64,000 nt of DNA, taken from Syntrophotalea acetylenivorans. Lineage in GTDB: Bacteria; Desulfobacterota; Desulfuromonadia; Desulfuromonadales; Syntrophotaleaceae. The notes beneath the pieces are model-generated. The model was not told the origin of the DNA and did not search any database. It saw nothing but the letters and a program-made list of their open reading frames with translations. The DNA is taken from positions 868,001 to 932,000 of the forward strand of contig NZ_CP015519.1 in assembly GCF_001887775.1 (NCBI RefSeq), in the 5' to 3' direction. Numbering within the stretch: the first letter of the stretch is position 1; each line of letters starts with the position of its first letter. Below, one piece after another: positions 19,018 to 37,114 of the stretch. The translations under genes were made by a program, and so were the position numbers.

Positions 19018-20937
19018 CTATCCTTTCGGGGCTGTTTCCAGTAAGTCCGTTAACGGATCATGGTGATAAATGGCCAGCCGGTTACTTGCCCGCGTGATGG
19101 CTACATACAGCAGATTTTTTCCCAGTTCCGTTACCGGGTACGCCCCCTTAGTAGGGTTCCATAAAATCACGCCCCCGAATTCCAGCCCCTTGACCTGATG
19201 AACATTGGTGACCAGGATACCCGGCTCAAAGGTCAGGGCGGCTGTCTGCAGACGCACGCCGGAAAGTCCTTTCAGGGCGCCGTACACCTGCTGAGCTTCG
19301 CTTTTGTAGCGACAGATCACAGCCGTTAGACTCTTGGGTTCCCTGGCCAGTAACACCCTCAAAGATCGCGCCAGATGGGCCAGGGATTCAGCCTCGGTTT
19401 CCCATCGATGGAAACGGGGATCCGGACCTTCGTTGACCACCTGGGCTACCGGCCGGCCCGACACCCTGGAGGCCAGAGCCATAATCTGGGCCGTCGATCG
19501 ATAGCTGACACTGAGTTCGCCGGAAGACAGCCCCTGGCCTTTCAGGTCCATCCGGAAAGCGGAAAAACCTTCGCCGTCCACAAAGTCGAGGATCTTCTGC
19601 TTTTCATCGGCGCAAACGGTCATGCTACGTCGTTTGTTGGTGGCAAAGGTCAGGGCTTTTAGTTCCGCCAGCGATAGGTCCTGGGCTTCATCGATGAGGA
19701 TGTGATCGTACCACCCCAGGGCTTCCCGGAAGGCGTCTTCTTTACCGCAGCGCAGCTGGATCAGGTGCAGCAAAATGCCGCTGTCGTCAAAGGAGAGTTC
19801 GCCCCTTTGGCCGCTAAGTATCTGTTCACCGGCCGTGGCCAGTTGCTCAAGTTGCCGGCGCCCGGAAAGATGTTTGCTCAGATTATCGGTTTGGCTGTAA
19901 AAGGTCCCCAGGTCAGCAATGGGGTTGTCCGGCGCCTTGGTCGTTGCCGCATATTCGACCAACGCATGGTACATCCCGGCCTGCTTTTTCAGTGGGCCCA
20001 ACCCCTGACCTTGGTGCGCTGAAAACTTGACCGCCACACCCGAGGAGCGCAAGGCCTTTGCCGCCCAGGAATGAAAGGTTTCCACGGCCAATTGCTCCGT
20101 CAGCAGATCCTTTGAGGTCTGGCGCACATAGTCGCAAAGGGAGCGGTTGAACATGACCACCAGGCATCGCTGCGGCCGGAAAAGCTCAGGCTGGTTGAAC
20201 AGCAAATAGGAAAGCCGGTGCAGGGCCACGGTGGTTTTACCGCAACCGGCGCCCCCGGTCAGATACAGACAGCCGTCGTGCTGTTGGGTGATGAGGCCGA
20301 ATTGATCTTTGGAGATCAGGGACACGATGTCCACCATCCGGTGGTCGCCTGTGGCTTCCTTGCGGATCGCACTGGCATTCTGCGGCCCCTGCTCGGTCCA
20401 GAGGCCGTCCCTCTTTACCAGGGTGCCCGCACCGGTCTGGATCGTCAGCAGTTCCCGTTGCTGGATGCCATAGGCGATCTTTTTTTCGATAACACCAGTG
20501 CGTTCCCGGTCGCCGATATCCTCTTCGTAGTCCTCGCCTTCCTCCCAGTCGTAGAACAGGCGGGAGATTTCAGCCTTTCGCCAATCCACCACCACAACGC
20601 GGGAACCGTCCATCAACCCCTGCTTGCCGAATAGCAGATGTTTCCGGCCGATCCTGGGGTCATCGTCGTTGATAAGCAGTCCGGCCAGGTAAGGGGTCCG
20701 GAGCTGCTCAAAAGGGACAAGATACTTGGCAGGATCGTACTGGGACAACCGATGGATCTCCTTCGTCAGCCGGTCCTTTTCCCGCGGGTCGACCGATTCC
20801 AGGCGTTCAACCTCATACCCTTTGATCTTGCGGTCATGTTCGGCAAGCTTTCCTCTCCGTTCACCATTGTAGCGGTCAACGGATCCGCAGACATCCGACA
20901 GACGCTGTTCTTCCTGGTTAATAAAAGCTTCCGGCAT
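19018..20937 (-). CDS. HelD-like superfamily 1 helicase
   Basis: A 639-residue UvrD/Rep-superfamily ATPase. The Walker A motif GGAGCGKTT is near residue 232, the Walker B DEAQD near 415, and the C-terminal motifs NVHQVKGLEF and YVAITRA are present. The N-terminal 150 residues are charged and helical and then contain VVDWRKAEISRLFY, which resembles the 'WRAP..LFY' strand of HelD-type proteins. HelD proteins release stalled RNA polymerase; a DNA helicase role is the alternative. The protein is shorter than many HelD proteins. GGAGG lies eight bases before the ATG. It is monocistronic with its own terminator. Confidence 0.8.
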   Translation of the reverse strand: MPEAFINQEEQRLSDVCGSVDRYNGERRGKLAEHDRKIKGYEVERLESVDPREKDRLTKEIHRLSQYDPAKYLVPFEQLRTPYLAGLLINDDDPRIGRKHLLFGKQGLMDGSRVVVVDWRKAEISRLFYDWEEGEDYEEDIGDRERTGVIEKKIAYGIQQRELLTIQTGAGTLVKRDGLWTEQGPQNASAIRKEATGDHRMVDIVSLISKDQFGLITQQHDGCLYLTGGAGCGKTTVALHRLSYLLFNQPELFRPQRCLVVMFNRSLCDYVRQTSKDLLTEQLAVETFHSWAAKALRSSGVAVKFSAHQGQGLGPLKKQAGMYHALVEYAATTKAPDNPIADLGTFYSQTDNLSKHLSGRRQLEQLATAGEQILSGQRGELSFDDSGILLHLIQLRCGKEDAFREALGWYDHILIDEAQDLSLAELKALTFATNKRRSMTVCADEKQKILDFVDGEGFSAFRMDLKGQGLSSGELSVSYRSTAQIMALASRVSGRPVAQVVNEGPDPRFHRWETEAESLAHLARSLRVLLAREPKSLTAVICRYKSEAQQVYGALKGLSGVRLQTAALTFEPGILVTNVHQVKGLEFGGVILWNPTKGAYPVTELGKNLLYVAITRASNRLAIYHHDPLTDLLETAPKG

Positions 20938-21060
20938 TGACTTGCCCTCCCCCTATTCCTTTCCGACTCGCTTGGCCGTCCCGGTTTTCCCGTCGCAGCA
21001 AGGCAACTGTCGGATCGAAACCAGCAAGAGACGTACTCTACACATAATTATTTTCAGGGC

Positions 21061-21103
21061 AAGAAAAAATAAAAAGGGCCCACCGCTGATGCGATGGGCC
21101 CTT
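21061..21103 (-). terminator. terminator after the zinc-ribbon gene
   Basis: On the minus strand, the arms AAGGGCCCA and TGGGCCCTT enclose a 12-base loop and are followed by TTTTTATTTTTTC. It closes the riboswitch-controlled zinc-ribbon gene. Confidence 0.9.
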
Positions 21104-21177
21104 GCTCAGGCACACAAAGTAGCAAGGATGGCTTGCAGCCGCCCTACCCCTTCCAAAATATCGACAATTTCAACAAA

Positions 21178-21387
21178 CTAAAGAGTAATGCTTGTTTCCT
21201 TGCCTTCGAGAGTGGACTGACTCTGATCGGTGTAGCCTCGACGAAGACGCTTGCCCAGCGCATCTTTAAGGCTAGGACCGGGGTGGCCGCAGTGACCGCA
21301 GAAATAGCTGCGCCCAAACAAAAGCGCAAAACGGTTTCCTCGGATCGGCAGCAGCGAGTCACAGTGGTTACAGTCTCCCAGAAGCAT
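21178..21387 (-). CDS. small zinc-ribbon protein under c-di-GMP riboswitch
   Basis: A 69-residue protein with two CxxC pairs (Cys6/Cys9 and Cys30/Cys33) spaced as in a zinc ribbon, then a basic tail (GKRLRRGYTDQ) that could touch nucleic acid. I do not recognise a named family. The start is well supported, with AAGGAG six bases before the ATG. A hairpin formed by GGTCT-CCCC and GGGG-AGACC lies directly before the ribosome site. Upstream are a terminator and a c-di-GMP-I aptamer in the same direction, and a terminator follows, so this is a self-contained single-gene unit. Confidence 0.75.
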   Translation of the reverse strand: MLLGDCNHCDSLLPIRGNRFALLFGRSYFCGHCGHPGPSLKDALGKRLRRGYTDQSQSTLEGKETSITL

Positions 21388-21440
21388 ATTGCTCTCCTTG
21401 GTCTACTCCCCTTTACTTGGGGAGACCTGCCGGCCGCCAA
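21388..21440 (-). promoter_or_regulatory. hairpin next to the zinc-ribbon ribosome site
   Basis: GGTCT and AGACC plus CCCC and GGGG on the minus strand form a stem ending two bases before AAGGAG. It could modulate access to the ribosome site or protect the message after readthrough. Confidence 0.5.
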
Positions 21441-21472
21441 CAAAAAAATCCATCTTCGGACCGAAGATGGAT
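21441..21472 (-). terminator. riboswitch expression-platform terminator
   Basis: A perfect 12-bp inverted repeat (ATCCATCTTCGG with its complement) is followed on the minus strand by TTTTTTTG. It sits between the c-di-GMP aptamer and the zinc-ribbon gene, where a ligand-controlled terminator would be expected. Confidence 0.85.
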
Positions 21473-21483
21473 GCGGATTGCAC

Positions 21484-21578
21484 CCGGATAGTTTCTTCGG
21501 CAGCCTGGCGATCCTTATCAGGACCCATGGCTTTGCGTCCCCATATTGCTACGGGTTTGCTATTGTCGGAAAATCCGG
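21484..21578 (-). ncRNA. c-di-GMP-I (GEMM) riboswitch aptamer
   Basis: On the minus strand the aptamer shows the two conserved GEMM-I blocks: GCAAACC and, after a hairpin with GCAA tetraloop, GGGACGCAAAGCC. A second hairpin (GGTCC/AGGATC, with G-U pairs) and GGCTGCCGAAG follow. The closing stem pairs CCGGAT at 21573-21578 with ATCCGG at 21484-21489. A TTGACA -35 candidate lies at 21620-21625 with a weak -10 seventeen bases on. A terminator follows immediately, so ligand binding probably controls readthrough into the zinc-ribbon gene. The direction of control cannot be told from sequence alone. Confidence 0.85.
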
Positions 21579-22010
21579 CGTTTCTAAATAATAGTTTAGT
21601 TAGCTTAGTTAGAATATCTTGTCAAGAATATTTTTAGATAAGGCCACACAACCGAACCGATTCTTCGATTTCCGCATTCATAAAATCGAACGAATAACGC
21701 CCGACCAAAAAAAGTCAGACGGTCGCAGAAACCACACTAAGTACGCAACAGCTTGTCATCAATAAAATCGTTGATTTCATCCTGAATCGATTGACCGGGG
21801 GGGGGTGCGGAGTGGTTTGGCCGTCAGGGGTGACTTCTTATTCTTTTTCATAGCGAAATCTGCCTCTTATTCGGGCTATTTCACTTGTAATAATGGGACT
21901 TTAAGTTGTTTTTCAGCCCAAGCCTTTAAAGAAATTTCTGGTATTTCAAAGCCTTAACCTGGCCCGTCCCCAGGAGAACCAGGCTTTCCCCCACGGCTTG
22001 TTCGAGCATT
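21579..22010. other. intergenic region upstream of the riboswitch
   Basis: About 430 AT-rich bases containing the riboswitch promoter candidate and a run of nine G's near 21798-21806. No gene or further RNA was recognised. Confidence 0.4.
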
Positions 22011-22478
22011 TCAATTATCTTCTAACACGTCGATATCGTTTATATACTTGGACATTAAATCGAATCCATAGGCTGAGTTTCCAGTTTCCAGCTCATACAC
22101 ATAGACAGGACATTTCGGTTTGTCGAGGTAAATAAAAAATAGCTCCTCACCGCCATCACTGCCAATAACAAACTTCTTCGGTTCTACCCACTCCTTGTGG
22201 TGCTTTTTACGTTGCGCAACGATTCTCTTTTTTGACCCATGCAACAGGACTCGCTTAAGGCGACCGAAAAGACTCCCATCATCTATATCGGAAAGATCAT
22301 CCGGCTTTATTTTGTAGGCGTTGTTAAGTTCGATGAGGCATTGTGGATCGGTGATCAAATAATAAAGTGAAGAATCCTCATTTTTTGAGAAATGAGGATT
22401 ATCCAAAATATTTTTATACAGGTCAGGCAATATGATGCCCAATTCACTTTCAATTACCGTGGAGGTGGAAGCATTCAT
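22011..22478 (-). CDS. SUKH (SMI1/KNR4) family protein
   Basis: A 155-residue acidic protein. The N-terminal ESELGIILPDLYKNIL helix-turn pattern and the later FVIGSDGGEELFFIY and VYVYELETG strands are the marks of the SUKH superfamily. Members are often immunity proteins for polymorphic or contact-dependent toxins. No toxin gene with an obvious export signal is visible next to it, so it may be an orphan immunity gene acquired with the defence island. It is the last minus-strand gene of the island and is separated from the riboswitch unit by about 430 bases. Confidence 0.8.
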   Translation of the reverse strand: MNASTSTVIESELGIILPDLYKNILDNPHFSKNEDSSLYYLITDPQCLIELNNAYKIKPDDLSDIDDGSLFGRLKRVLLHGSKKRIVAQRKKHHKEWVEPKKFVIGSDGGEELFFIYLDKPKCPVYVYELETGNSAYGFDLMSKYINDIDVLEDN

Positions 22479-22765
22479 CGGATTGATACTCTCCTGACAT
22501 CAACATCATGCTAATTTTAATTGCTGGCCCTGGTCAAACCCGAGAACCATAGCATAAAGGACAGATATTGACGAACGGCTGGTTTCGCTACTCGATTTTA
22601 TAGAGTGTTTCGGCGGCGTCCACACAACAGAAGGCATATCAATCTGATAAAGTATGAATCTAAAAAACCGCTTTGCAGTAGACAACCCTTTGACAACACC
22701 AGATCTTGGGCTGTTTAAAAATGCCCATTTGTCAAGCCTTGTAGATTTCCTTATACATTTGACCT

Positions 22766-23440
22766 TTATAAGCGATGAAAAACTTGAGCCTGGCCAAAAC
22801 AATAATCGACAATCAGTTTCCGCATCTCTGGAATATGTTTATAGACTCGCCCATCGGAAAAATGAAAAACCTTGTGAATTGCCGTATCACCGAGCTTGCA
22901 TAACAGGCCGTGTGCATCCGAGTCAGGTACCCAGGAGAAGAGTCCCCAGCGTTTTTTTATCTTCCTCATGCGCCGGATGACATTATCGGACAAAAAGATA
23001 ATGCGCCTTGAACCACACTGCAAAAGGGTGTCGAGGCGCTTCGCATGCTCAGGGCTGAAAAGATTCCAAAATTCTTTTTCCCCAGAGGAATTACCAATAG
23101 TCGGAACATCCAGCAGTTCTACAAATGAAATAAAGGGGGCGTATTTACTTGAAAGATTTAGAGCGGCAAAACTTCGGTGATACGGCACACCGCCAGTATT
23201 TTTTTTAAAGGGGTATTCATCGAGCAAAAAAGGATGATGACGATCGTACCTTTGCCAGAAGGCGACACCGTCCCGGTGATACTCGATGATCCGATGGAAG
23301 AAGGGATGGTCGGAAAGGGCTGCGGAGTAGTTGGCGTCACTACCAAAGAAAAGGATCTTTGCAAGTTCCGGCTTTTGTCCCTGGTGCGGAGAGCCTTTGA
23401 ACAACGTGCGTAGCTCTTCTGACGGGTGAATTCCATACAT
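22766..23440 (-). CDS. hypothetical protein, possible uracil-DNA-glycosylase-like fold
   Basis: A 224-residue protein. The segment ILFFGSDANYSAALSDHPFFH near residue 30 resembles the first motif of uracil-DNA-glycosylase-fold proteins (G-x-D-x-x-Y), and PYHRSFAALN, FVELLDVPTIG and RRIIFLSDNVI follow in the order of alternating strands. This is a weak structural guess; catalytic residues of true glycosylases are not clearly conserved. AGGTGG lies before the ATG. It follows the PD-(D/E)XK-like gene by about 60 bases in the same direction, so the two may form a small operon. The setting suggests a defence or DNA-modification role. Confidence 0.6.
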   Translation of the reverse strand: MYGIHPSEELRTLFKGSPHQGQKPELAKILFFGSDANYSAALSDHPFFHRIIEYHRDGVAFWQRYDRHHPFLLDEYPFKKNTGGVPYHRSFAALNLSSKYAPFISFVELLDVPTIGNSSGEKEFWNLFSPEHAKRLDTLLQCGSRRIIFLSDNVIRRMRKIKKRWGLFSWVPDSDAHGLLCKLGDTAIHKVFHFSDGRVYKHIPEMRKLIVDYCFGQAQVFHRL

Positions 23441-23500
23441 GAATTATCCACCTTTCTTGTAAACGGTTCTTGGGAATCCACCCGATTTCCTCGCCTGTAG

Positions 23501-23992
23501 TCACTCGGAAAATATGTCCCATTTGTTTAGACAGTCTGCAAGGTGTGTTTCATTGATGGAAGCGTGGGTTGATTTGTGATTTTTTGGACGGACATTATCA
23601 AACCTATAAAGAAAATTAATGTAGTTTTTCTTTATGCGGCCAGCAAGATCTTTGGCTCTAATAATATAAAACCTGTCATCAGATTCTGTTGCGATTTTCA
23701 CAAAAACATAAATTAAATGGTCGCTGACAGTGTTGGAAATTCCTGTCACACGCTGCTTTTTTCCGACAAAAGAAATATCTATAAATCGACTTGCCTTAAG
23801 TTGCCATGACGAGGAACTAATAGTCTTTACCTGGACAGGTATTGCTTTCAGGCCTTCCCCAATAGCAATGACATCGAACCCTGGAACATTCCCGGCGAAG
23901 GGGGTGGCGAGAAATCCCCTTTTTGCCAACTCAGCAGCGACAAGATGCTCCCCTGCCTGCTTAACCAATTGCTTTGACCGGCCATCACTCAT
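23501..23992 (-). CDS. PD-(D/E)XK nuclease-like protein
   Basis: A 163-residue protein with an N-terminal helix carrying Glu15 and Glu21 (GEHLVAAELAKRGF), then Asp40 in GFDVIAI and Gln54-Lys56 in IPVQVKT. This E...D...QxK layout is typical of small restriction-like or Holliday-resolvase-like nucleases (DUF4365-like). The substrate is unknown. GGAGG precedes the ATG. It heads a possible two-gene unit with the glycosylase-like protein. Both are AT-richer than the housekeeping genes around, which fits acquired DNA. Confidence 0.7.
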   Translation of the reverse strand: MSDGRSKQLVKQAGEHLVAAELAKRGFLATPFAGNVPGFDVIAIGEGLKAIPVQVKTISSSSWQLKASRFIDISFVGKKQRVTGISNTVSDHLIYVFVKIATESDDRFYIIRAKDLAGRIKKNYINFLYRFDNVRPKNHKSTHASINETHLADCLNKWDIFSE

Positions 23993-24151
23993 CGTAGACC
24001 TCCGATTGAAATCATGTCACTATCTCAAACCTATGTCTTGCCGCAAAGTCCCTCAAACGCCACAAACTATTCATGCCTACTCAAGCTCATATGAGCTAAT
24101 ATTTGGTTTTAGGAAAAGTATTATTTAAAAATTGTATATCAGTGCAATAAC

Positions 24152-24547
24152 CTAACTATCGAATTTCCAATCAACCGTTATGATAAGACGCTCTGCGCTA
24201 CCGAAGGTTATTGGTATCGGTATATAAGGTTCGCCAAGTTCCCACTTTGAAGCATCCCCTTCAGGCCGGTATCTTATTGTTTTAGAACATTCATTGAGTT
24301 TATTCAAACAAACAACTATAGGTTCCTCACGAGTTCTGGGTGATTTGCGGACCACCTCAGGGGGCAAATTAGATAGTTGCTGAGAAGCGACAGGCGTTAT
24401 CCCTACAAGGATTACCCGAGGCCAAGGCTCTGGTACTCTCCACTTTGGGATATATAGTTCAAAATTTATATTATCAATATAGGCGTCCCACCGAACCTTA
24501 TTATCAGTTTCCTTAAACTCTTCAAGCAATGCCATTTCAAATGCCAT
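24152..24547 (-). CDS. hypothetical protein
   Basis: A 131-residue protein with no family I recognise. It is rich in Pro, Trp and charged residues, with strand-like segments (RVILVGITPVA, EPIVVCLNKL, ERLIITVDWKF) that suggest a beta-sandwich. There is no signal peptide or membrane helix. AAGGAGG lies eight bases before the ATG, which supports a real gene. It sits in the defence island, about 225 bases after the membrane-protein gene. Confidence 0.55.
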   Translation of the reverse strand: MAFEMALLEEFKETDNKVRWDAYIDNINFELYIPKWRVPEPWPRVILVGITPVASQQLSNLPPEVVRKSPRTREEPIVVCLNKLNECSKTIRYRPEGDASKWELGEPYIPIPITFGSAERLIITVDWKFDS

Positions 24548-24772
24548 CCGAATCCCCTCCTTAGTTAGAGATGATCATCCGGCCCTAGATTTTCGCAGGC
24601 CAAATTTTTATTCAGCAGCAGGACGTAAGGCGATGACGACTTAAAAAATAATAACAAAGTTGTGATGAGGATTCAGAAAATTAAAAAAAGGATCAGATCT
24701 ATTAGGCAATTGCAGATCAAGTATATCCTTGATTCATTTCCTGCTAGCGGGAAAGGACTTTAAAGAAAGCTG

Positions 24773-25513
24773 TTAATGTTGGGACCGATGATCCTCTAGA
24801 TCTTCATCAACCATTTCCATGGAAGTAATCCTGGCCAGCGGGAGCACCTTCACACCCTTATCGGTAAAAAGGGCGTAAAAGGAAGAGGATGTAGCCAGGC
24901 GGTAACCGGAAAGGTTTTTGCCCTGCCCAGTCTCATCTAAAAAGGTCAAGGAGACTTTTTCGAATTGGTTTTTGGAAATTGGTTGACCGGCAAGCAATTT
25001 TTGATGCTGCACCTCAGCCATGGATATGCCTTTTTGTGGGGCAACGACGGATATCAAAACAATACCCACAACGACCAAAGCAGCACCGAGAAAACGCCCC
25101 AATAAATTTATAAGCTCAATCGCAAGCGCCTTCCGAAAAACATAAATTTTCTTTTTACCCATCGCTCGTTGGATGAGACCGAACGGTTTTTTAGCGCAAA
25201 GAAGAATACCTGCCGTATATATGCAGAGAACCTCCACCACCATCAAGGAAAAATATCCCCAATTCTCAAGGCTAGCGGAAAGATAAAACCAGCCGGCATG
25301 ATAAAAAGCGTTTTCTGTTGTGACTGGAAAAAGTTCAGAACCAAGACCCCAGTAGGAAAGATAGCCCTCATAAAGGCTGCGACCATGGAAGTAAAGTGCT
25401 GCGGAAATGACGGCAAGGATAATTGCCGAGTTGGAAAGGATTTTGGGCAGGCTGCTGGTATCTTCTTTGGGCTGTGGCTCAAGGTGCCTGCGGCGATGGT
25501 ATGGCCTTCTCAT
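24773..25513 (-). CDS. membrane protein of unknown function
   Basis: A 246-residue protein with an arginine-rich cytoplasmic N-terminus and about three or four membrane helices (around 28-45, 85-105 and 140-160), then a soluble C-terminal domain of about 80 residues with an ALFTDKGVKVLPLARI segment. No family was recognised. It lies directly downstream of the type I RM operon in the same direction, 94 bases after the nuclease gene, so it may be co-transcribed. A role as a membrane-acting effector is conceivable, but nothing in the sequence shows it. Confidence 0.6.
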   Translation of the reverse strand: MRRPYHRRRHLEPQPKEDTSSLPKILSNSAIILAVISAALYFHGRSLYEGYLSYWGLGSELFPVTTENAFYHAGWFYLSASLENWGYFSLMVVEVLCIYTAGILLCAKKPFGLIQRAMGKKKIYVFRKALAIELINLLGRFLGAALVVVGIVLISVVAPQKGISMAEVQHQKLLAGQPISKNQFEKVSLTFLDETGQGKNLSGYRLATSSSFYALFTDKGVKVLPLARITSMEMVDEDLEDHRSQH

Positions 25514-25607
25514 TCTAAAAAAGCCTCACATAAGAAATTGTTTGTCTTTAGCTGCGTTCATAGATTTACAGTAGGTAACCCTTTGACGACACCAGGCCTT
25601 CGGCAAC

Positions 25608-26771
25608 TTAAACAAGAAACTCCGTCACGTCCAATGCCGTTTCGCCACCTTTGAAATGCAGACACATCTTCCCATCTGGAGAATCAAAAAAATGAACATG
25701 CCAATACATTCGATCCTCTTTATTTGTCACATTCAGCTTAGGTAAAAGCTCAACAAACTTATCCATCTTTAAAAGCAGAACTTTTTCTGGTGAGCCACAA
25801 CCAAAGGCAAGATATGATTCCTTATATTTTTCTAAGACCTCATTGAAATGGGGATGATATGCGTACCAATAGTAGGTTTTATCGCCGGTGATATGTGATT
25901 TTGATACAAGGCAGCGTACAGAAATCGATTTGTCCACTGTAGCGTAAAGAGTCCTTGTCGTACGCTTTAAATCTTTCTGCATATACTCTGCTACGTGTTC
26001 AGCAACTTCTTTATTAAAGCCTACAGGGACAAACTTCTTCTCTTTTGTCGACGTGGTCTCTTCTTCACCATTCGAAACTTCTACGTCATGTAGGTCCTCA
26101 GCCGTCGTTGCCAACAAATCTACAACGAAATCTAGCTTAGTAAGCTCAAGGGGGGTCAAAACTGAACGGATTTTTGTGATTGTTGCCTGATCATCAGCCG
26201 CCTCTTTGATATCGACCAGCTTAATCAGTGCCTCTGCACTTATAAGTCGCATATCCCAGGCATGCCGAGAACCACGAACCTGGGCTTCCAGACTATTTGT
26301 GTCTTTCCTACCAACAACGATGAGAATTGAGGAGTTTTCAGTTATCTCCCCGACTGCAATGAGGGCTTTTCTATAATCAGCTATCTTGTCAAGATTGATT
26401 GTGTAAGCATCTGTCGTCTTCACTTCAACAACAATGCTGTAACCATTAGGGAAGGTCCAAATACCGTCGAAACCGATCGCGTTAACCTTGCCCTGATACA
26501 GTCCATACTTCACATCACAATCGAGACGTTGCCCCAGTTCATTCACAATGTCCTGAAGCACCAATCCACTGTTTAAAAAGGATTTTTCAAGGCACTCACG
26601 CAGATAGATCCCTAGCTGCTCAGTAGGAATAGCAGAAAACAGCTCACGGAGTTCTAGAGATGTCTTGTTGCCATCCTTTAGGGTGCCATCACCCGCAATA
26701 GCAGTTAATTGCTGCACCTTTTTATCTTGAAAATCGACACCGTTTGTTTTCCATAGTTGCAACAGAGACAT
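25608..26771 (-). CDS. PD-(D/E)XK nuclease encoded with the type I RM system
   Basis: A 387-residue protein whose residues 100-125 contain a clear restriction-like core: Asp102 in GFDGIW, and Glu116 and Lys118 in IVVEVKTTDAY. The C-terminal half (about 250-387) is a separate domain with many aromatic residues (TYYWYAYHPHF) and no family I can name. The gene begins 14 bases after the hsdM stop, with GAGGGG six bases before its ATG, so it belongs to the hsd operon. HsdR has its own nuclease domain, so this is an extra nuclease, perhaps a helper, a target sensor or a second effector. Confidence 0.75.
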   Translation of the reverse strand: MSLLQLWKTNGVDFQDKKVQQLTAIAGDGTLKDGNKTSLELRELFSAIPTEQLGIYLRECLEKSFLNSGLVLQDIVNELGQRLDCDVKYGLYQGKVNAIGFDGIWTFPNGYSIVVEVKTTDAYTINLDKIADYRKALIAVGEITENSSILIVVGRKDTNSLEAQVRGSRHAWDMRLISAEALIKLVDIKEAADDQATITKIRSVLTPLELTKLDFVVDLLATTAEDLHDVEVSNGEEETTSTKEKKFVPVGFNKEVAEHVAEYMQKDLKRTTRTLYATVDKSISVRCLVSKSHITGDKTYYWYAYHPHFNEVLEKYKESYLAFGCGSPEKVLLLKMDKFVELLPKLNVTNKEDRMYWHVHFFDSPDGKMCLHFKGGETALDVTEFLV

Positions 26772-26785
26772 TTCATTCCCCTCGT

Positions 26786-28282
26786 TTAGGACAGTTCTTC
26801 CTCTTCTCCCAAATCCTCAGCAATCAATCGAAACTGCTCCAGCGCCGCTTCAAGATCCTGCACGATTTCAGCAGCGATAACACCCGGCTCAGGCAGATTG
26901 TCCGAATCCTCCAGCGAATCGTCTTTGAGCCAAAAGATATCGAGGCTTGCCTTATCGCGGGCGATCAGATCTTCATAATCATAGCAGCGCCAGCGGCCGT
27001 CCGCATTCTCCTCATTCCAGGTGGCGGTACGTTGTTTGCGATTGGCTGGATTGTAAAGCTCGACGAACTCATCCAGATCGCTGCGCTTTAGCGGGTTGGT
27101 TTTGAGGGTGAAGTGCATGTTGGTGCGCAGATCGTAGATCCACAGTTTCTTGGTCCACGGCGTTTCACTGGCTGGTTTACGGTCGAAGAAGATGACGTTC
27201 GCCTTCACACCTTGCGCGTAAAACAGGCCGGTCGGCAGCCGAAGAACGGTGTGGACGTCGCATTCGTGCAGCAGCTTGCGGCGGATGGTCTCCCCTGCCC
27301 CGCCTTCGAACAATACGTTGTCTGGCACAACCACGGCGGCGCGGCCATGTTGCTTGAGCAGGGTCTTCACGTGCTGCATAAAGTTAAGCTGTTTGTTCGA
27401 GGTGGTGGCCCAAAAGTCGTCACGCTCGACGGTTTCCTTCTCCTTGGCCACCTTGCCATCTTCACCAACGATGGTGGTGCTGCTCTTTTTGCCAAAGGGA
27501 GGATTGGTAAGGATGATGTCGAAGCGGTCGCCCGGGTCGGCGGCGAGGGAATCGCTGACAGCCAAAGGCAAAGCAGTATCGTCACTGCCGATGCCGTGCA
27601 GCATCAGGTTCATGGCGCAGAGGCGTGCTGTCGACTGCACCAGTTCCCAGCCCTTGAAGGTGCCTTGTTTGAGCTTTTTACGTTCGTCCTTGGTCATATG
27701 GGGATAGTTGTCAACAAGGCTGTCGTGGGCGGCGAGCAGAAATCCACCGGTACCACATGCCGGGTCGCAGATCGTTTCACCCGGTTTGGGGGCGATGACG
27801 TCGACGATGGCCTGGATCAGCGGCCGTGGCGTGAAATACTGGCCGGCACCGCTCTTAGTGTCCTGCGCGTTTTTCTCCAGCAACCCTTCATAGGCATCGC
27901 CTTTGACATCGGCACTCATCACCGACCAGTTTTCGCTGCCGATCAGATCGACGATTAGGCGACGCAGCTTCGCCGGATCCTGGAATTTGTTCTGCGACTT
28001 GTTAAAGATCAGCCCGAGCAGACCCTTCTCATTGCCGAGATTTTCAAGAGTGTGGCGATAATGGTCAAACAGTTCATCACCGTCCTTTTTCACCAGTGTC
28101 GGCCATGAGTAATCGGCTGGGACGTTGCTTTTCTGGTTGTAGGGCGGTTTGGTCCGTTCGTCGGCCATCTTGAGGAAAAGCAGATAAGTGAGCTGCTCGA
28201 CGTAGTCGCCATAGCTCATGCCGTCGTCGCGGAGGACGTTACAATAATTCCAGAGTTTGCTGACAATTGCTGCTGGGGTCAT
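26786..28282 (-). CDS. hsdM: type I restriction-modification methyltransferase subunit
   Basis: A 498-residue N6-adenine methyltransferase. The SAM-binding motif DPACGTGGF is near residue 172 and the catalytic NPPF near 258; the N-terminal helical HsdM domain is present (CNVLRDDGMSYGDYVEQLTYLLFLKM). Two HsdM with one HsdS would form the modifying enzyme; adding HsdR gives the restriction complex. The gene is intact. It is separated from hsdS by two inserted genes, unlike the usual adjacent hsdM-hsdS order, and followed after 14 bases by an extra nuclease gene. Confidence 0.95.
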   Translation of the reverse strand: MTPAAIVSKLWNYCNVLRDDGMSYGDYVEQLTYLLFLKMADERTKPPYNQKSNVPADYSWPTLVKKDGDELFDHYRHTLENLGNEKGLLGLIFNKSQNKFQDPAKLRRLIVDLIGSENWSVMSADVKGDAYEGLLEKNAQDTKSGAGQYFTPRPLIQAIVDVIAPKPGETICDPACGTGGFLLAAHDSLVDNYPHMTKDERKKLKQGTFKGWELVQSTARLCAMNLMLHGIGSDDTALPLAVSDSLAADPGDRFDIILTNPPFGKKSSTTIVGEDGKVAKEKETVERDDFWATTSNKQLNFMQHVKTLLKQHGRAAVVVPDNVLFEGGAGETIRRKLLHECDVHTVLRLPTGLFYAQGVKANVIFFDRKPASETPWTKKLWIYDLRTNMHFTLKTNPLKRSDLDEFVELYNPANRKQRTATWNEENADGRWRCYDYEDLIARDKASLDIFWLKDDSLEDSDNLPEPGVIAAEIVQDLEAALEQFRLIAEDLGEEEELS

Positions 28283-28343
28283 ATTTTATCTCATACTTAA
28301 ATAACTAAAATTCAGACTTTTATCAAAAAGAATCAAATAATAA

Positions 28344-29966
28344 TCAACCAGACAGGTACTCCAATACTGCTGATGTAGCCACATTCATTATTTTTCGGGA
28401 TCTTTTTGGTCCAATATAATGTGCTTTTTGAAAAACTGACTCATTAGATGCAAGTGTTTTACCGATATTATCGATACCAATTGAAATTAACGCGTCTTTC
28501 TGATGGCGCGTCAGATCCAGCACCTCAACAGAACGTTGAAGTAGCTGATTAATTATCTGTGAGGTATCAGCCTCTACTGTGGACCCTACTTCTGCAACTA
28601 ACTCTCCAAAAACACTATAGTTTGCACCATATTCGGTAAACCGCTTAATAGACAGTCCTTTACGCAAGTCAGAAATGAAAGTTATCGGGTTAGAAGAAGG
28701 CGATGCGAGACAGCCAATATTTATGGAATACCTTGTCCCTATTTCACGGCGTGTAGCAACAACACCTGAATCAAGTTTACTTACAACACCAGTGTACGTT
28801 AACAAACGAAGGGCCTCTTTCACCGCTTCGGGAGCGTCACGATGTACCCAAAAAAAACAAGTTCTTTCACTCTTGCCGTCAGCTTTCCAAGACTCATTCT
28901 TCCGAATTGCATCGTTGACAATTGTTTCCTCAACAAATTTACGGCCCCAATCTATTAAAGCTCTATGGCCAGCATATCTTTCAGCCAAACCGCTATGTTC
29001 GGACCAAATATTACTTCGGTAGAACTCTTTGATTGCTGACTGAACTTCACCGGACCTCAACTTTGGAGCTAAAGCCACTGTTTTCAACAATAGTCTAGGG
29101 TTACCACTTACGGCAAAGGCCAGCGCATCAAAGTTTTCACCGTTACGTTCGATATCTTTTTGTAAATCCGAATCTGCCTGTCTATAAATTATTTCCCGCA
29201 TCTGATCCCGATAACCTGGGTCCGTTACCTCTCGATGAAGCGATTCAATCCTTGCATCATGGGCAGCCTCAAAAGTAGCCCCATAGGCGGTAACACCAGG
29301 ATATACTGCAGCATTACATGTCATATAAGGAGACCGAAGGTCCCTAAAAAGCGTAAAAAACTGCCGTTGTTGTTCTGGCCGAAAAATATGAGCAGCTTCA
29401 TCAAAGAGAATATTTATTCGCCTTAAACCCAACTCAGCACATAAGTCTTGGATAGAGTCACGGAAATCTTCAACATCAGGGATGGCAGACGTATCAATTT
29501 GTGTACCTGGGTTTTTAAAGGAATTTTCAAAATCCTGCACAACCTTTTCGAGACGCGTTGGCTCGCCGGCAGATCCGTCACCATCACCAGCGAGAACACG
29601 AGCGGCGCCCAGTCCCCTTCCTAAGAGCCCTATACTATATAATGTTCTTAAGATTCTTGAACTTAGTCGGGCAAGCATCCAGTGCTGGAACTGCAATGGG
29701 TCATTAGTATGTAACAAAGAGCTCTTTACGAATGATACATAGACAGGAAGCACACCCTCTTCCGACAATGAAGACAACTGTTCTTGCTCGCAGACACGCA
29801 AAAGAAGTGATTTTCCAGTCCCACGACTGCCTTCTATTACCAGAGGCGTTGGCCCCTTAAGCATAGCGACTAGTTGGTCATCTCTCTCTGTGCGAACATA
29901 AAAACTTAGAACCTCTTCTGGGCGAATATCTTCAGTCCGAATTATAAATTCTCTTGTCTGACTCAT
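28344..29966 (-). CDS. P-loop (ORC/STAND-like) ATPase inside the hsd operon
   Basis: A 540-residue ATPase. Walker A is GSRGTGKS at residues 46-53; Walker B is INILFDEAAH near 190; arginine-rich sensor-like segments follow, and helices near 300-420 resemble the winged-helix part of ORC/Cdc6-like ATPases. The last 60 residues form a helical repeat (SIGIDNIGKTLAS and YIGPKRSRKIMNVA) that looks like a helix-hairpin-helix or SAM-type module. The start overlaps the stop of the preceding HEPN-like gene by four bases (ATGA), so the two are translationally coupled. It is not a standard part of a type I RM system and probably works with its partner as a sensor ATPase. Confidence 0.75.
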   Translation of the reverse strand: MSQTREFIIRTEDIRPEEVLSFYVRTERDDQLVAMLKGPTPLVIEGSRGTGKSLLLRVCEQEQLSSLSEEGVLPVYVSFVKSSLLHTNDPLQFQHWMLARLSSRILRTLYSIGLLGRGLGAARVLAGDGDGSAGEPTRLEKVVQDFENSFKNPGTQIDTSAIPDVEDFRDSIQDLCAELGLRRINILFDEAAHIFRPEQQRQFFTLFRDLRSPYMTCNAAVYPGVTAYGATFEAAHDARIESLHREVTDPGYRDQMREIIYRQADSDLQKDIERNGENFDALAFAVSGNPRLLLKTVALAPKLRSGEVQSAIKEFYRSNIWSEHSGLAERYAGHRALIDWGRKFVEETIVNDAIRKNESWKADGKSERTCFFWVHRDAPEAVKEALRLLTYTGVVSKLDSGVVATRREIGTRYSINIGCLASPSSNPITFISDLRKGLSIKRFTEYGANYSVFGELVAEVGSTVEADTSQIINQLLQRSVEVLDLTRHQKDALISIGIDNIGKTLASNESVFQKAHYIGPKRSRKIMNVATSAVLEYLSG

Positions 29967-30679
29967 GATGAGCTTGGGCCTCCGACAACAATTCTTATCT
30001 GTTCAATATGATCTAACTGACCAACGACAATTGTCTCAATGACAGAAAGATCCTCGGGTGGCAATTCTTTTAAATAGCGTGAACAAAAACAAAAAGCGAC
30101 TACAAGTCGTACAGTTTCTGCTTTTTCATGCCAAAGGCTAAACACCTCGTCGTCAAACTCAAATGAGTCTGGAAGTGGGATATTGCTTGGCACATTCCCA
30201 TGGATAGTCTCTGAAAGCTCTCGATAAATCGTACTTGCCATACTTTGAAAATTTTTTGCGTGGGTAGAGATTTCCGGGAAAAAGGCCTTACAAAAGCGGG
30301 TTCCCAGGGGACTAGTATCTGGCGCGACAAGTTTACCCCAAATGGTGTCAGATATATTGTTCAACCACTCTCTTAGTTCGACTATGTTTGCCGATAAATA
30401 AACGCCCTGGATGCATAATTCCAAAACTAACCTTAAACATTTGAAGGCATTTCGATATTGTCCTTGAGCGAGGTTTAGCATAGCCGTCAAATACTCTTCA
30501 CCAGCTTTTCTATACAGAAAAAGCTCTGGCTTAGAGGCTAGGACGCTACACCACTTTGTTAAATCATCGCCTAGTGCGCAGCTTTTATTCATTTTAGCTA
30601 TATTACCCTCATCCAAAGATACACTGAGCGTCCCAGTGCAAACTTGGTGAAGTTCTTCAAGCATTTTTTTTGTAGGCAT
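29963..30679 (-). CDS. helical protein, HEPN-like, partner of the ATPase
   Basis: A 238-residue, almost wholly helical protein. Residues 75-95 (YRNAFKCLRLVLELCIQG) and 150-161 (TIYRELSETIHG) resemble the two core helices of HEPN-type domains, with Arg153 and His160 in an R-x6-H spacing close to the HEPN ribonuclease motif. This is an inference from pattern only. The protein starts 11 bases after the hsdS stop and its end overlaps the ATPase start. If the fold is right, an RNase effector with a coupled ATPase would recall PrrC, where both functions are in one protein embedded in an hsd locus. A purely structural role is the alternative. Confidence 0.55.
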   Translation of the reverse strand: MPTKKMLEELHQVCTGTLSVSLDEGNIAKMNKSCALGDDLTKWCSVLASKPELFLYRKAGEEYLTAMLNLAQGQYRNAFKCLRLVLELCIQGVYLSANIVELREWLNNISDTIWGKLVAPDTSPLGTRFCKAFFPEISTHAKNFQSMASTIYRELSETIHGNVPSNIPLPDSFEFDDEVFSLWHEKAETVRLVVAFCFCSRYLKELPPEDLSVIETIVVGQLDHIEQIRIVVGGPSSS

Positions 30680-30690
30680 TATCGTCCTAT

Positions 30691-32088
30691 TTAGTTAGTC
30701 AATCGTCCTGAGAAAGCTTGTTTTAGGATCGACTGGCGCATACGGCCGGCGCGGCACAGATTGGCGTCGATCTGGGCTTCTGTTTCGGCGACAATGGAGA
30801 GGAGGCGTTCGACTTCAGCGGTGACTTGTAGTTGTTCGGCGAGCGGCGGGAGAGCAACTAGCAAACTCCGTATTTGCTCCAAACTCAACCCAGGCTTTCC
30901 AGCACCATAAGCCCAATCCTCTAGCTGTCTACGGCCGTTTGCAGGGGAAACGATCCAAAAATAAAGAAACTCTGAAATTGAAATGAGACAAGGCTTCAGC
31001 AATGCCACATGCTGACTTACAAATGCCCTTTCTTCCAGACCAAGTACAAGCGCTGACTTAGTGACATTTGCTCCCGTGATTGTCACTAGAATGTCATGGT
31101 TCGTTACTGCGCTTCGAATTCCCTCTGCTTTGCTCGGGACATTCACTCTTGCGACATTTTTCAGTACCAAACTATCTGTTTTAATATCCTGGGCTCGAAT
31201 AAATAGAGGGCCTGAGTCTGCGTAACTGCCACCCCAGCCACGCGAACCACTAGTAACCAAATGAGTTAGTTGCTCAATACTCGCCCAACACCACCCCTCA
31301 GGCAACTCCGGCAGGTCAGTGGTATCCGGCGCAACAGGTTCTTTGTACTTCCCTCTCCCCTGCCATTTCTCCCGCCGCTCGACAAGAATCTGCTCCAACA
31401 GTTTATCGGCAGGTTCAACATCGGGATGCTGCCTGCGCCACTCTTCGGTGAGTTTTCCTTCGACGGCGGCTTTGAGGACGGCGGCTTTGTAGCGTTTGAG
31501 ATTGACCTTGACGCGCTTGAGATTGGCGACGGCTTCGTTGAGGCGGGAGAATTGCTTTTCGATTTCCGCGACGATGCGTTTTTGTTGCGCCTCTGGAGCA
31601 ATAGGAATTTTTTGTTCTTTTAGGTAAGTTGTAGAGACACGTTTTTGTCCAACAGCCCCTGTCATGTAACGCGCAGCGATCCCTCGAAAGTTTTGACTCG
31701 AAACGAAATAGTAGAGATATCGTGCGTCAATCTCAGGCTTTGGCCGTAAAACATGAAATTCTGTGGAACCGAAACCATAGCCATTTGCTACCTTGGGAAC
31801 TATAGCCATTTTTCCGTTTTCCATGCAGGGTGTTATTTTCGCAAAAAGAACATCTCCTTGTTTGAATCCCGTAAAACCCTTTTTAACTTCAGAGGCAGGT
31901 CTTTCAAGCGAAACATCAATTGAACCATCGCCTGCACCTACAGCTGGCATTGGCACAAATGACACCAAAAGGTCGTCGGGGATTTCGGCCTTATTTAGTC
32001 GCGGATTTACTTCACAGATTTCACCAATTTTGGCTACAGACCAGTTCGCCGGAAGCATTTGAGCTCTCATTTCTTTCACAATACACAA
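30691..32088 (-). CDS. hsdS: type I RM specificity subunit
   Basis: A 465-residue HsdS with two target-recognition domains (about 10-150 and 245-400), each followed by a conserved helical region (QQKRIVAEIEKQFSRLNEAV and LQVTAEVERLLSIVAETEAQ) that sets the spacing between half-sites. The recognised DNA site cannot be read from sequence. The start is uncertain: ATG codons at 32088, 32070 and 32058 are all possible. It lies between the small membrane-protein gene and the HEPN-like gene in one operon. Confidence 0.93.
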   Translation of the reverse strand: MCIVKEMRAQMLPANWSVAKIGEICEVNPRLNKAEIPDDLLVSFVPMPAVGAGDGSIDVSLERPASEVKKGFTGFKQGDVLFAKITPCMENGKMAIVPKVANGYGFGSTEFHVLRPKPEIDARYLYYFVSSQNFRGIAARYMTGAVGQKRVSTTYLKEQKIPIAPEAQQKRIVAEIEKQFSRLNEAVANLKRVKVNLKRYKAAVLKAAVEGKLTEEWRRQHPDVEPADKLLEQILVERREKWQGRGKYKEPVAPDTTDLPELPEGWCWASIEQLTHLVTSGSRGWGGSYADSGPLFIRAQDIKTDSLVLKNVARVNVPSKAEGIRSAVTNHDILVTITGANVTKSALVLGLEERAFVSQHVALLKPCLISISEFLYFWIVSPANGRRQLEDWAYGAGKPGLSLEQIRSLLVALPPLAEQLQVTAEVERLLSIVAETEAQIDANLCRAGRMRQSILKQAFSGRLTN

Positions 32089-32110
32089 CCAATATTTGCA
32101 CTGGGGGGCC

Positions 32111-32458
32111 TCAGCGACCCTTACCTACACCGCGACCGAAACCGAATCCACCTAGGAACCCAAGTAGCGCTATAACAATTTTCTCCGTGAGCTGAACCTC
32201 TCCCTTGAAGAGAGCAACCGCCGCAAGCAGTACAACAAGGACAGCCACCGCAAATATGTAACCAAGGAAACGGCTTGTTACTTTCCCCAATATCTCTGCC
32301 CTCTTCGTTTCCTCCTTTTGAGCGATCTCCTGACTTTTCGCGAGCGGCTCAGTGACTCCCTTTAGCAACTCAGTTAATGCAACCGCCTCCCGCTCAGAAT
32401 TAGATTGTGTGACAACCTGTGGTTCTTGAACGCTTTCAACTACCTGTTTATCAGCCAT
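32111..32458 (-). CDS. small membrane protein in the hsd operon
   Basis: A 115-residue protein. The first 60 residues are charged and helical, probably coiled-coil (VALTELLKGVTEPLAKSQEI), and are followed by two membrane helices (YIFAVAVLVVLLAAVALF and KIVIALLGFLGGFGFG) with a short basic end. It lies 22 bases from both hsdR and hsdS, so it is co-transcribed. I know of no standard role for a membrane protein in a type I system. It might tether the complex near the membrane or be a separate effector; neither is shown. Confidence 0.7.
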   Translation of the reverse strand: MADKQVVESVQEPQVVTQSNSEREAVALTELLKGVTEPLAKSQEIAQKEETKRAEILGKVTSRFLGYIFAVAVLVVLLAAVALFKGEVQLTEKIVIALLGFLGGFGFGRGVGKGR

Positions 32459-32480
32459 GCGAAACCCTCTTTAATTGACT

Positions 32481-35324: not shown

Positions 35325-35556
35325 AAAATCCCCCACGTAGGCATAATAAAACCGCCCGCGCCTCATAGGCACCAAGCGGCCTCATCGATCAGTGCGATTG
35401 CTTCCGCACAATCTTATCCCATCCTCCGGCCATTAAAAACAAACACCTTAAAATACCCTTAAGAAAAACAGAAGTCAACGTTGGGAGAATAGTTGACACC
35501 CATCTTCGCATACATAAAAAGATGGCGGAGTTGGCACCGCCGACTACGTCGGAAAT

Positions 35557-36573
35557 CTAAGAAAGGAGCAATCGGTGGCCTTTGCCAGTCAGCCGATAAC
35601 GCTGAGTCGGGCTGCGGGGAGAGTCGGGCTGAGTGCGTTCAATCCAGTTATCTTTCAAGGCCGGGTTGAGATAGTTTTTCCGGAATGTGGGCCGGTGGGA
35701 CAGGCCGAGAGCCTTCATTAACTCTTTGCTGCCCAGTTCATCGGTCCCAATCGCCTCGATCAACGTCAATACTTGGTCGGTTACTTGATCGCCTACTTGG
35801 TCGGTGGCCACGGCTTCGCGAATAGCCGCGCACAAGGTGCTAAGCATGAACTCAATAAAGGGAGCGGAATCGGTCTGCCGGGTGCTCTCCTGCAATGCTT
35901 GATAATATTCGGCCTGGTTCTCGAAGACCAGGCTTTCCACAGGGAGGTCGGCGAACAAAGGATTCCAGCGGGCTAGAATCAGGCTCTGCCACAGCCGCCC
36001 CATGCGACCGTTGCCGTCGGCAAAAGGGTGAATGAACTCGAACTCGTAGTGAAAGACAGAACTGGTAATCAGGGGATGTTCTTGGGAGACGGCCAGCCAG
36101 TGAAAAAGATCGCACATCAGAGCAGGGACACGATCAGCAGGCGGAGCCATATGGACCACTTGACTGCCCGCCATCACCCCGACACCACCGAAGCGATAAG
36201 CCCCGGCTTTGTCGATCAGCGCGGCCATCAGGATGCCATGCGCCTCCAGCAAGTCATCCTCAACTTCCGGCTGCCATGTATCGAAGCGATCATAAGCGGC
36301 GATGGCGTTACGCACCTCCTGAATTTCACGAGGAGGTGCAATGACCCGTTTGCCATCTAGGATCGCAGTGATCTGGGTTTCGCTTAGGGTGTTGCCTTCA
36401 ATGGCTAATGAACCGCGAATGGTGCGGATGCGATTGACACGGCGTAGCTGAAGGGCTTGGGAAAGATCCGTCAGGGCAGAAAAGCGCCCGACCAGTTCAC
36501 TGATATCGGCAACCAGGCGCAATATGACAGAATTGAGGGTATAGGGTGGTTGGTATGAGTTCTGATTGCTCAT
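35557..36573 (-). CDS. Fic family protein with intramolecular inhibitory motif
   Basis: A 338-residue Fic protein, expected to transfer AMP to a target hydroxyl. The core motif HPFADGNGR is complete (His182). Residues 55-60 (SLAIEG) match the S-x-x-x-E-G/N inhibitory helix found N-terminal in class II Fic proteins, so activity is probably self-restrained. A winged-helix DNA-binding domain occupies the C-terminal 80 residues. The ATG at 36573 is preferred to an upstream TTG, with AAGGG upstream. It lies 230 bases before hsdR in the same direction. Fic proteins are often found with RM loci, but a functional link is not shown. Confidence 0.9.
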   Translation of the reverse strand: MSNQNSYQPPYTLNSVILRLVADISELVGRFSALTDLSQALQLRRVNRIRTIRGSLAIEGNTLSETQITAILDGKRVIAPPREIQEVRNAIAAYDRFDTWQPEVEDDLLEAHGILMAALIDKAGAYRFGGVGVMAGSQVVHMAPPADRVPALMCDLFHWLAVSQEHPLITSSVFHYEFEFIHPFADGNGRMGRLWQSLILARWNPLFADLPVESLVFENQAEYYQALQESTRQTDSAPFIEFMLSTLCAAIREAVATDQVGDQVTDQVLTLIEAIGTDELGSKELMKALGLSHRPTFRKNYLNPALKDNWIERTQPDSPRSPTQRYRLTGKGHRLLLS

Positions 36574-36715
36574 GAAGATCAACCCTTGGCCCGGTCGCCC
36601 TAAAAATACGGCAATCAACAGGTCGCGACCCTTTAGTGCTATTTGATGGGAATTCCTGTCAACCTGATATAAAAGTTTCTAAAGCAGCGCATCAAGGTTT
36701 TTAAAATTCTTGTTT

Positions 36716-36756: not shown

Positions 36757-37114
36757 TGGTGGAGGTGGCGGGAATCGAACCCGCGTCCGAAAATCTTTCA
36801 CATAAGGCCTCTACATGCTTAGTCGGTGTATTTAAGTTTAACCGGCAACCGCTCCCATCGACAGGATCTGTTACAGGCGATTTCGCTTAAGTTTCGCTCC
36901 GGCACCACGAACTCTTGCCGAAACTAGCCTATTAAAATGACGTCTTTAAGCCCACACAGGCATTGGAACTCAAGACGTAGCAGCAATTAAGCTGCTAGTG
37001 CGTACGAAACGTCAGTATCGGCGTTTGTATAAGTGCCAGTTTTTTAACGAGGCCAACTGGCGTCCCCGGCATGCCACCTTTGCTTCCAATCCCCGTCGAA
37101 ACCAGGTCACCCCC
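36757..37114 (-). ncRNA. ssrA: tmRNA
   Basis: Transfer-messenger RNA of about 358 nucleotides. The 5' GGGGGUG pairs with CACCUCC before the 3' ACCA. The 3' T-arm region (GGTTCGATTCCCGCC on the RNA) and the 5' GACCTGGTTTCGACGGGGAT block are unmistakable. The resume reading frame at 37022-36987 encodes ADTDVSYALAA and ends at TAA, a tag with the usual ALAA proteolysis signal. smpB lies upstream in the same direction. The promoter was not identified. Confidence 0.97.

Follow-up and report, generated by a model that had tools for sequence, protein, structure and literature searches.

The cGAMP riboswitches known from the literature, which we cite here from partial texts of the reports, switch on genes for extracellular electron transfer in Geobacter. 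In these texts, the aptamer base that contacts the ligand is G for c-di-GMP and A for c-AMP-GMP (PMC9481103), and an A-to-G change at nucleotide 20 converts a cGAMP riboswitch to c-di-GMP selectivity (PMC6456294). The Geobacter GEMM-Ib elements of pgcA and pilM, with cytochromes and pili as targets, turn genes on, and in the ON switch pilM the 3′ strand of the aptamer forms part of the terminator (PMC9262584). In the OFF switch Cd1 of Clostridioides difficile, the aptamer is compatible with the terminator, and the two compete with an antiterminator; ligand gives aptamer plus terminator, while its absence gives the antiterminator, in which the 3′ strand of the aptamer pairs with the 5′ arm of the terminator (PMC9262584).

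Here, we present an analysis of a GEMM-I element on the minus strand of a 64,000-nucleotide stretch (the window) of the genome of Syntrophotalea acetylenivorans; the genome was scanned as a single contig of 3,218,469 bases, and the features of the element and its gene are given in window coordinates, 5′ to 3′ on the minus strand. On balance, we favor the reading that this element is a cGAMP-selective GEMM-I (GEMM-Ib) transcriptional riboswitch with an OFF platform that serves a single small gene and belongs to a cassette copied from a paralogue. The element resembles Geobacter GEMM-Ib in its aptamer family, the A at the specificity position, the use of a transcription terminator and the presence of a GacA-like enzyme in the genome; it differs in that P1 and the terminator can coexist, so that it is predicted to be OFF, and in that its target is a tiny orphan gene. 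It resembles Cd1 in layout; however, the ligand of Cd1 is c-di-GMP, the organism is another one, and, judged from the published transcript positions, the stretch between the aptamer and the antiterminator partner is longer.

The aptamer is well supported. In the Rfam covariance-model scan, RF03167 (c-di-GMP-I-GGC) matches 21570-21495 with 64.3 bits (cut-off 59; E 6.9e-13), and in the search of the whole genome RF01051 (c-di-GMP-I) scores the same site at 66.7 bits (cut-off 35), both above the gathering cut-off. The conserved blocks GCAAACC (21560-21554) and GGGACGCAAAGCC (21541-21529) are in place, P1, P2, P3 and the conserved core are present in the cmscan alignment and the minimum free energy (MFE) structure, and the P2 loop reads GCAA, i.e., is of the GNRA type. 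None of 200 shuffles of the stretch 21590-21442 folds as well (z −3.55). Thus, the core of the first-pass annotation, a GEMM-I element with an intrinsic terminator ahead of a gene whose 69-residue product carries two CxxC pairs, is confirmed, and the riboswitch upstream of this tiny orphan gene is genuine. In the MFE structure of the transcript up to the terminator, the 5′ strand of P1 is CCGGATTTTCCG (21578-21567), which includes an outer extension, CCGGAT. Folding puts the switching strand GCCGAAGA (21501-21494) on the 3′ side of P1 when the terminator is formed, and pairs it with UCUUCGGU in the predicted antiterminator.

The intrinsic terminator (21472-21441) was identified by the terminator scan, by folding and by compensatory changes in its outer stem among nine aligned elements. 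What had been described as a perfect 12-bp terminator is an inverted repeat of 12 plus 12 bases with one central base, while the hairpin itself (21472-21448; z −4.25) has 11 pairs and a loop of 3 nt and is directly followed by a T7 tract. Terminator-like sites number 4 per 701 bases here versus 0.8 expected, with one of the four inside the ORF. The segment TCTTCGGT (21467-21460), which comprises terminator 5′ arm plus a loop base, can pair with the switching strand as judged from folding and complementarity, and would thereby form the antiterminator. In the MFE structure of the intermediate ending after the terminator 5′ arm, a small hairpin (GGGTGC/GCATCC, 21485-21469) lies inside the predicted antiterminator and overlaps the base of the terminator. 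Upstream, a putative sigma-70 promoter was read by eye (21625-21597), with a −35 element TTGACA (21625-21620), a 17-nt spacer and a −10 element TAACTA (21602-21597); we regard it as weak because the consensus promoter scan lists no minus-strand promoter before the aptamer.

The further hairpin that had been noted at the ribosome site is real. It occupies 21427-21400, directly before the Shine-Dalgarno sequence AAGGAGAG (21399-21392), and folded as 21430-21402, i.e., minus its last two 3′ bases, it has a free energy of −10.6 kcal/mol (z −2.57). Masking of the Shine-Dalgarno site by this hairpin is ruled out because the last base of the stem is 21400, and the first of the site is 21399. The hairpin, which abuts this site, may be an insulator or a second control layer. 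Downstream of the ORF, a strong intrinsic terminator with 13 pairs (21103-21074; terminator scan) suggests a one-gene unit and, by its position, rules out riboswitch control of the UvrD-like gene at 20937-19018.

Which cyclic dinucleotide the element binds was judged from the specificity base and from the synthases that the genome encodes. The base before GCAAACC in the window element (21561) is A, which we take to be number 20 from the Vc2 structure. In this alignment, the element has the A in place of G that marks GEMM-Ib, i.e., the cGAMP type (PMC6456294 and PMC9481103, partial texts). The genome has seven GEMM-I elements, of which five have A at this position (L001, L002, L003, which is the window element, L005, and L006) and two have G (L004 and L007); in the set of 37 loci in which the base was read from the core pattern, the pattern is missing in seven and lies 1.3 kb off the expected place in L027. 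Among the 39 GGDEF matches in the genome, the substrate site was located by motif search in 34 loci, and a second motif search found none in the other five. Within these 34, Ser replaces Asp at the substrate site of L086, which has GGDEF, and of L091, which has GGDDY; a third locus (L067) has Asn. The product of L086 is the sole one of the 34 readable loci to combine this Ser with an intact GGDEF motif (NDSRGHLAGS...GGDEF), and its gene is thus an encoded candidate for a Hypr GGDEF enzyme, as defined by Ser at the substrate site and GGDE[FY]. It is a 456-residue REC-GAF-GGDEF protein (L165:851-2218; the GAF domain scores slightly below the Pfam cut-off), and its best PDB match is 6d9m, the GacA fusion (E 5e-51, versus 2e-34 for PleD). 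Its gene adjoins a frame that by eye resembles histidyl-tRNA synthetase. Judged by these features, the genome encodes a GacA-like enzyme that could make cGAMP.

Because the specificity base is A and a GacA-like GGDEF protein with the synthase serine is encoded, we infer that 3′,3′-cGAMP is the likelier ligand of the window element and that c-di-GMP, the ligand originally assigned, is probably wrong. The competing reading keeps the OFF platform but assigns c-di-GMP as the ligand, either alone or along with cGAMP in a promiscuous riboswitch. Both Rfam families that match the aptamer are named as c-di-GMP families, the 39 GGDEF matches make it very likely that c-di-GMP is present, a Geobacter riboswitch responds to both ligands (PMC6456294, partial text), and the A-type aptamer of D. 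acetoxidans shows perhaps only a slight drop in c-di-GMP affinity (PMC9481103, partial text). With A at the specificity position and a GacA-like enzyme encoded, however, we consider this reading unlikely.

The polarity of the element was deduced from its geometry and folding. The window element has the layout of Cd1 rather than that of pilM: the terminator begins 23 nt past the aptamer, and the MFE structure of the transcript ending at the T-tract contains P1, P2, P3 and the terminator all together. In growing ligand-free transcripts, the 3′ strand of P1 starts out on the P side (5.0 of 10 nt paired); once the terminator 5′ arm is complete, 7.8 of 10 nt are paired with this arm; and once the terminator is complete, the strand returns to the P side (3.9 of 10 nt). 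The price of retaining the P1 core is 6.9 kcal/mol at the stage of the complete 5′ arm and about 0.5-0.6 kcal/mol at that of the complete terminator, a difference that ligand binding could cover. Because P1 and the terminator can coexist, while the 3′ strand of P1 has the terminator 5′ arm as an alternative partner, folding places the element with OFF switches of the Cd1 kind, in which the terminator tolerates the ligand-binding fold of the aptamer and the antiterminator joins the aptamer's 3′ strand to the 5′ arm of the terminator; the computation thus suggests an OFF layout, which the first-pass annotation had missed. The fold with the finished terminator is more stable than the others, so that the switch has to work kinetically, and the P1 extension (CCGGAT/ATCCGG) may delay formation of the antiterminator. 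For a 231-nt transcript that includes the ribosome site, the MFE structure is another one, with the 3′ side of the aptamer paired with sequence beyond the terminator, which is transcribed only once termination has been decided. Stepwise folding of six elements of the genome gave a clear strand exchange in L001, L002, L003 and L006, a partial one in L005 (1.6 and then 4.0 of 10 nt) and none in the G20 element L004; in L002, the ligand-free RNA scarcely forms P1 in longer transcripts.

In the mechanism that we propose, RNA polymerase would start near 21590 and transcribe the aptamer, which would fold with P1 closed. Without ligand, the terminator 5′ arm (UCUUCGG), once made, would pair with the P1 3′ strand (CCGAAGA), P1 would open, the terminator would come too late to form, and the 69-residue protein would be made. 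With 3′,3′-cGAMP bound, P1 would be held and the 5′ arm left free, such that the terminator would form and transcription would stop.

This polarity would set the element apart from the described cGAMP riboswitches, and an ON switch like pgcA of G. sulfurreducens or pilM of G. metallireducens, in which ligand blocks termination, is the alternative. The published cGAMP riboswitches are ON (PMC6456294 and PMC9262584) or predicted to be ON (PMC9481103); the partial literature on cyclic dinucleotide riboswitches at hand, which does not cover the founding reports and thus may miss an earlier mention of an OFF member, otherwise leaves the polarity of cGAMP members unstated. Moreover, elements whose terminator overlaps the aptamer, and which are compatible with an ON polarity, occur in relatives. 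Nevertheless, the position of the terminator 23 nt past the aptamer, its coexistence with P1 in the MFE structure of the transcript that ends there, and a P1 cost of 0.5-0.6 kcal/mol versus 10.7-24.2 kcal/mol in overlap-type elements make an ON switch very improbable here. The ON polarity that is typical of GEMM-Ib, while not strictly defining it, is not predicted for this element by its geometry and folding energies.

To place the predicted OFF element in a wider context, we compared the 73 GEMM elements in 14 genomes of the family. Automatic sorting gave 55 elements with a separate terminator (20 A20, 34 G20, and one with an undefined base), 17 with an overlapping terminator (nine A20, three G20, and five with an undefined base) and one without a terminator; the automatic assignment to the overlap class is doubtful for the three G20 elements (L119, L151 and L154), and at least three of the five undefined overlap elements (L117, L122 and L160) by eye have an A before a changed P2 pair. 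In L117 and L122, CC...GG replaces GC...GC at the first P2 pairs, a change that seems to be compensated. All five A20 elements of the host genome belong to the separate-terminator class, and relatives carry both layouts. At the finished terminator, P1 costs 0.2-5.9 kcal/mol in all 20 A20 separate-terminator elements and 10.7-24.2 kcal/mol in the 11 computable ones of 14 overlap elements with A or an undefined base (nine and five, respectively, of which two and one dropped out of the calculation, as did the element without terminator). The two ranges do not meet; because the overlap class is defined by overlap with the aptamer, the high cost in this class is partly built in. Among G20 separate-terminator elements, the cost spans 0.0-14.1 kcal/mol with no separation in the 21 of 34 computed, with the other 13 and all three G20 overlap elements left out of the calculation.

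Scored for complementarity of the P1 3′ strand to the 5′ arm or loop of the terminator, 15 of the 20 A20 separate-terminator elements (the exceptions being L116, L121, L125, L128 and L161) and 13 of the 34 G20 ones reach a value of 6. The motif CTTYGG occurs in the 5′ arm or loop of only one of the 36 terminator-like hairpins of the window, which is that of the riboswitch itself. Outside the family, a strict pattern search of 134 genomes yielded 20 A20 elements, all of which were examined: seven reach the score of 6 (L170, L174, L176, L178, L180, L184 and L185), eight stay below it, three have an overlapping hairpin, and two lack a clear aptamer end.

Covariation supports the terminator. In an alignment of nine rows, made from 11 sequences with L006 and L146 omitted because their terminators were misaligned, compensatory changes affect four of the 11 pairs of the terminator outer stem, and the covariation of the whole structure was reached by none of 500 shuffles. 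The CUUC part of the terminator is invariant in all nine rows, as expected if CUUC serves two helices. In the antiterminator helix, one of eight pairs has changes on both sides, and covariation is not above that of shuffles (95 of 500). Similarly, for the loop pair, 19 of 26 distinct strand pairs are paired versus 18.0 expected (Fisher p 0.36, not significant); because these 26 were picked for CTTYGG, the set is circular with respect to CTTYGG conservation. Covariation as proof of the antiterminator was therefore dropped.

The ORF behind the riboswitch (21387-21178) was borne out as noted at first, with an ATG start, 69 residues and two CxxC motifs (C6xxC9 and C30xxC33GHPGP). A search of 136 genomes of the order, a number that counts the host genome, used a model that already contained the sequence in question and gave one clear homologue, which is in Pelobacter sp. 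UBA6093 (G008), a member of another genus, and is 47% identical over 53 residues and 41% overall; five further genomes have weaker matches (E 0.003-0.01). The start and the cysteines are conserved between the genera, which suggests that the ORF is translated. C6, C9, C30 and C33 are kept in both sequences, as in a two-CxxC zinc ribbon. As a statement of family membership, however, zinc ribbon goes too far: the 69-residue protein has no match above the cut-off in Pfam or NCBIfam and none among PHROGs (its homologue matches a PHROG of unknown function at E 0.012), the best match among PDB chains has an E of 0.68 and does not count as a match, and the AlphaFold2 model has a mean pLDDT of 54, too poor for a fold search, and thus gives no confident fold. 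The description of the target as regulator-like found no support either. Our best guess is that the protein is a small metal-binding adaptor. In genome contigs, a search with the single sequence found no relatives and one with the two-row alignment only Pelobacter sp. UBA6093; a search of viral contigs gave no relatives of the ORF, and the DNA of the locus has no match among plasmids.

The comparison proposed in the first-pass annotation, i.e., whether homologues in relatives also follow a GEMM element, came out negative: upstream of the one clear homologue in the 135 other genomes, there is no GEMM element within ~1.5 kb, and the Rfam scan there gave nothing credible. This finding fits a decayed or non-switching duplicate, in which a cassette copied by chance has a terminator that merely attenuates a gene outside the regulon, and the stable P1 extension may likewise favor constant termination. 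On the other hand, the aptamer core, A20, the terminator and the switching strand are intact and like those of the paralogues, and the gene has both a strong Shine-Dalgarno sequence and its own terminator; we therefore hold a decayed duplicate to be quite improbable and prefer the reading of a working OFF switch.

The origin of the cassette was traced by comparing the DNA at 20900-22100 with four other genomes of the genus. Homology is confined to positions 526-662 of the query, i.e., to the aptamer plus terminator, with the best match to the element before a PAS-GGDEF gene in G004 (83%) and 79% identity to the paralogue L001; a match at E 0.0009 within the window reflects the palindrome of the terminator. 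Six riboswitches of the same genus that belong to PAS-GGDEF genes or FIST operons (L001, L114, L002, L104, L118 and L142) are 75-84% identical to the window element at the DNA level, and this identity runs through the terminator in five of the six, being limited to the aptamer in L002. A20 and the switching strand CCGAAGA are common to them, while the downstream genes are others and the P1 extension CCGGAT/ATCCGG belongs to the window copy. Because homology is confined to aptamer plus terminator, the riboswitch probably moved as one piece, and the gene behind it is specific to the lineage. Judged from these alignments, the probable source of the whole cassette is a paralogous signalling locus, the closest being that of PAS-GGDEF, and the copy would in its new place have captured a lineage-specific gene; the duplicated nature of the cassette had also escaped the earlier reading.

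The genes behind related elements were identified by a rule that found no first downstream gene for 16 of the 73 elements, for some of which frames were then taken by eye, and Pfam scans covered two sets of ten. The other A20 elements of the genome precede a FIST operon, a GGDEF-EAL gene, an outer-membrane efflux protein and a PAS-GGDEF gene; in the last, the locus ends within the first part of an EAL domain. In relatives, A20 separate-terminator elements lie before CheW (L126) and dCache-HAMP proteins (L116 and L121), the latter two being without the antiterminator complementarity. Behind overlap-type elements, five of the nine genes scanned have a Pfam match (subtilase, DJ-1/PfpI, alpha/beta hydrolase, AHSA1 and isochorismatase) and four have none.

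Altogether, we tentatively propose, with slightly less than even confidence, that the cGAMP riboswitches of the Desulfuromonadales have drawn both polarities from one aptamer; that an OFF set, including all five A20 elements here, represses mostly signalling genes (FIST, PAS-GGDEF and GGDEF-EAL, and in relatives cheW) when cGAMP rises; and that the self-contained cassette is copied before lineage-specific genes such as that for the 69-residue CxxC protein. Pelobacter sp. SFB93 has been described as an acetylene fermenter with a circular chromosome (PMC5331500). If the proposal is true, the OFF set would extend the role of cGAMP, in an acetylene-fermenting relative of Geobacter, to switching genes off; evolution would then have altered polarity, and not ligand alone, through changes in the expression platform. 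The locus also places a riboswitch cassette before a new gene, whose tiny product would be a candidate member of the cGAMP regulon.

Several minor observations concern the related loci. The specificity base differs, A or G, before similar CheW-like genes (L126, L136 and L131 versus L130) and before similar Cache-like genes (L116, L121 and L128 versus L007 and L149), as if the choice between cGAMP and c-di-GMP flipped at comparable loci; the Pfam scan covered only L126, L116, L121 and L007 of these. The outer-membrane efflux gene behind an A20 element (L005:1727-3078) is in two frames, possibly due to a frameshift or an assembly error. A conserved 63-residue ORF follows the riboswitch in L002 (1795-1983), L103, L120 and L142; it has no Pfam match in L002, the copy scanned, and a FIST or FIST-like frame comes after it in L002, L103 and L120.

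As for the neighborhood in the window, no second copy of the 3′ end of the tmRNA gene (36757-37114) was found in the window at up to three mismatches. A possible defence island (22011-36618) adjoins this gene. It begins with a frame that matches SMI1/KNR4 slightly below the Pfam cut-off (22011-22478), contains frames that by eye resemble type I restriction-modification genes (hsdM at 26786-28282, hsdS at 30691-32088 and hsdR at 32481-35375) and ends with a frame that by eye is Fic-like (35557-36618).
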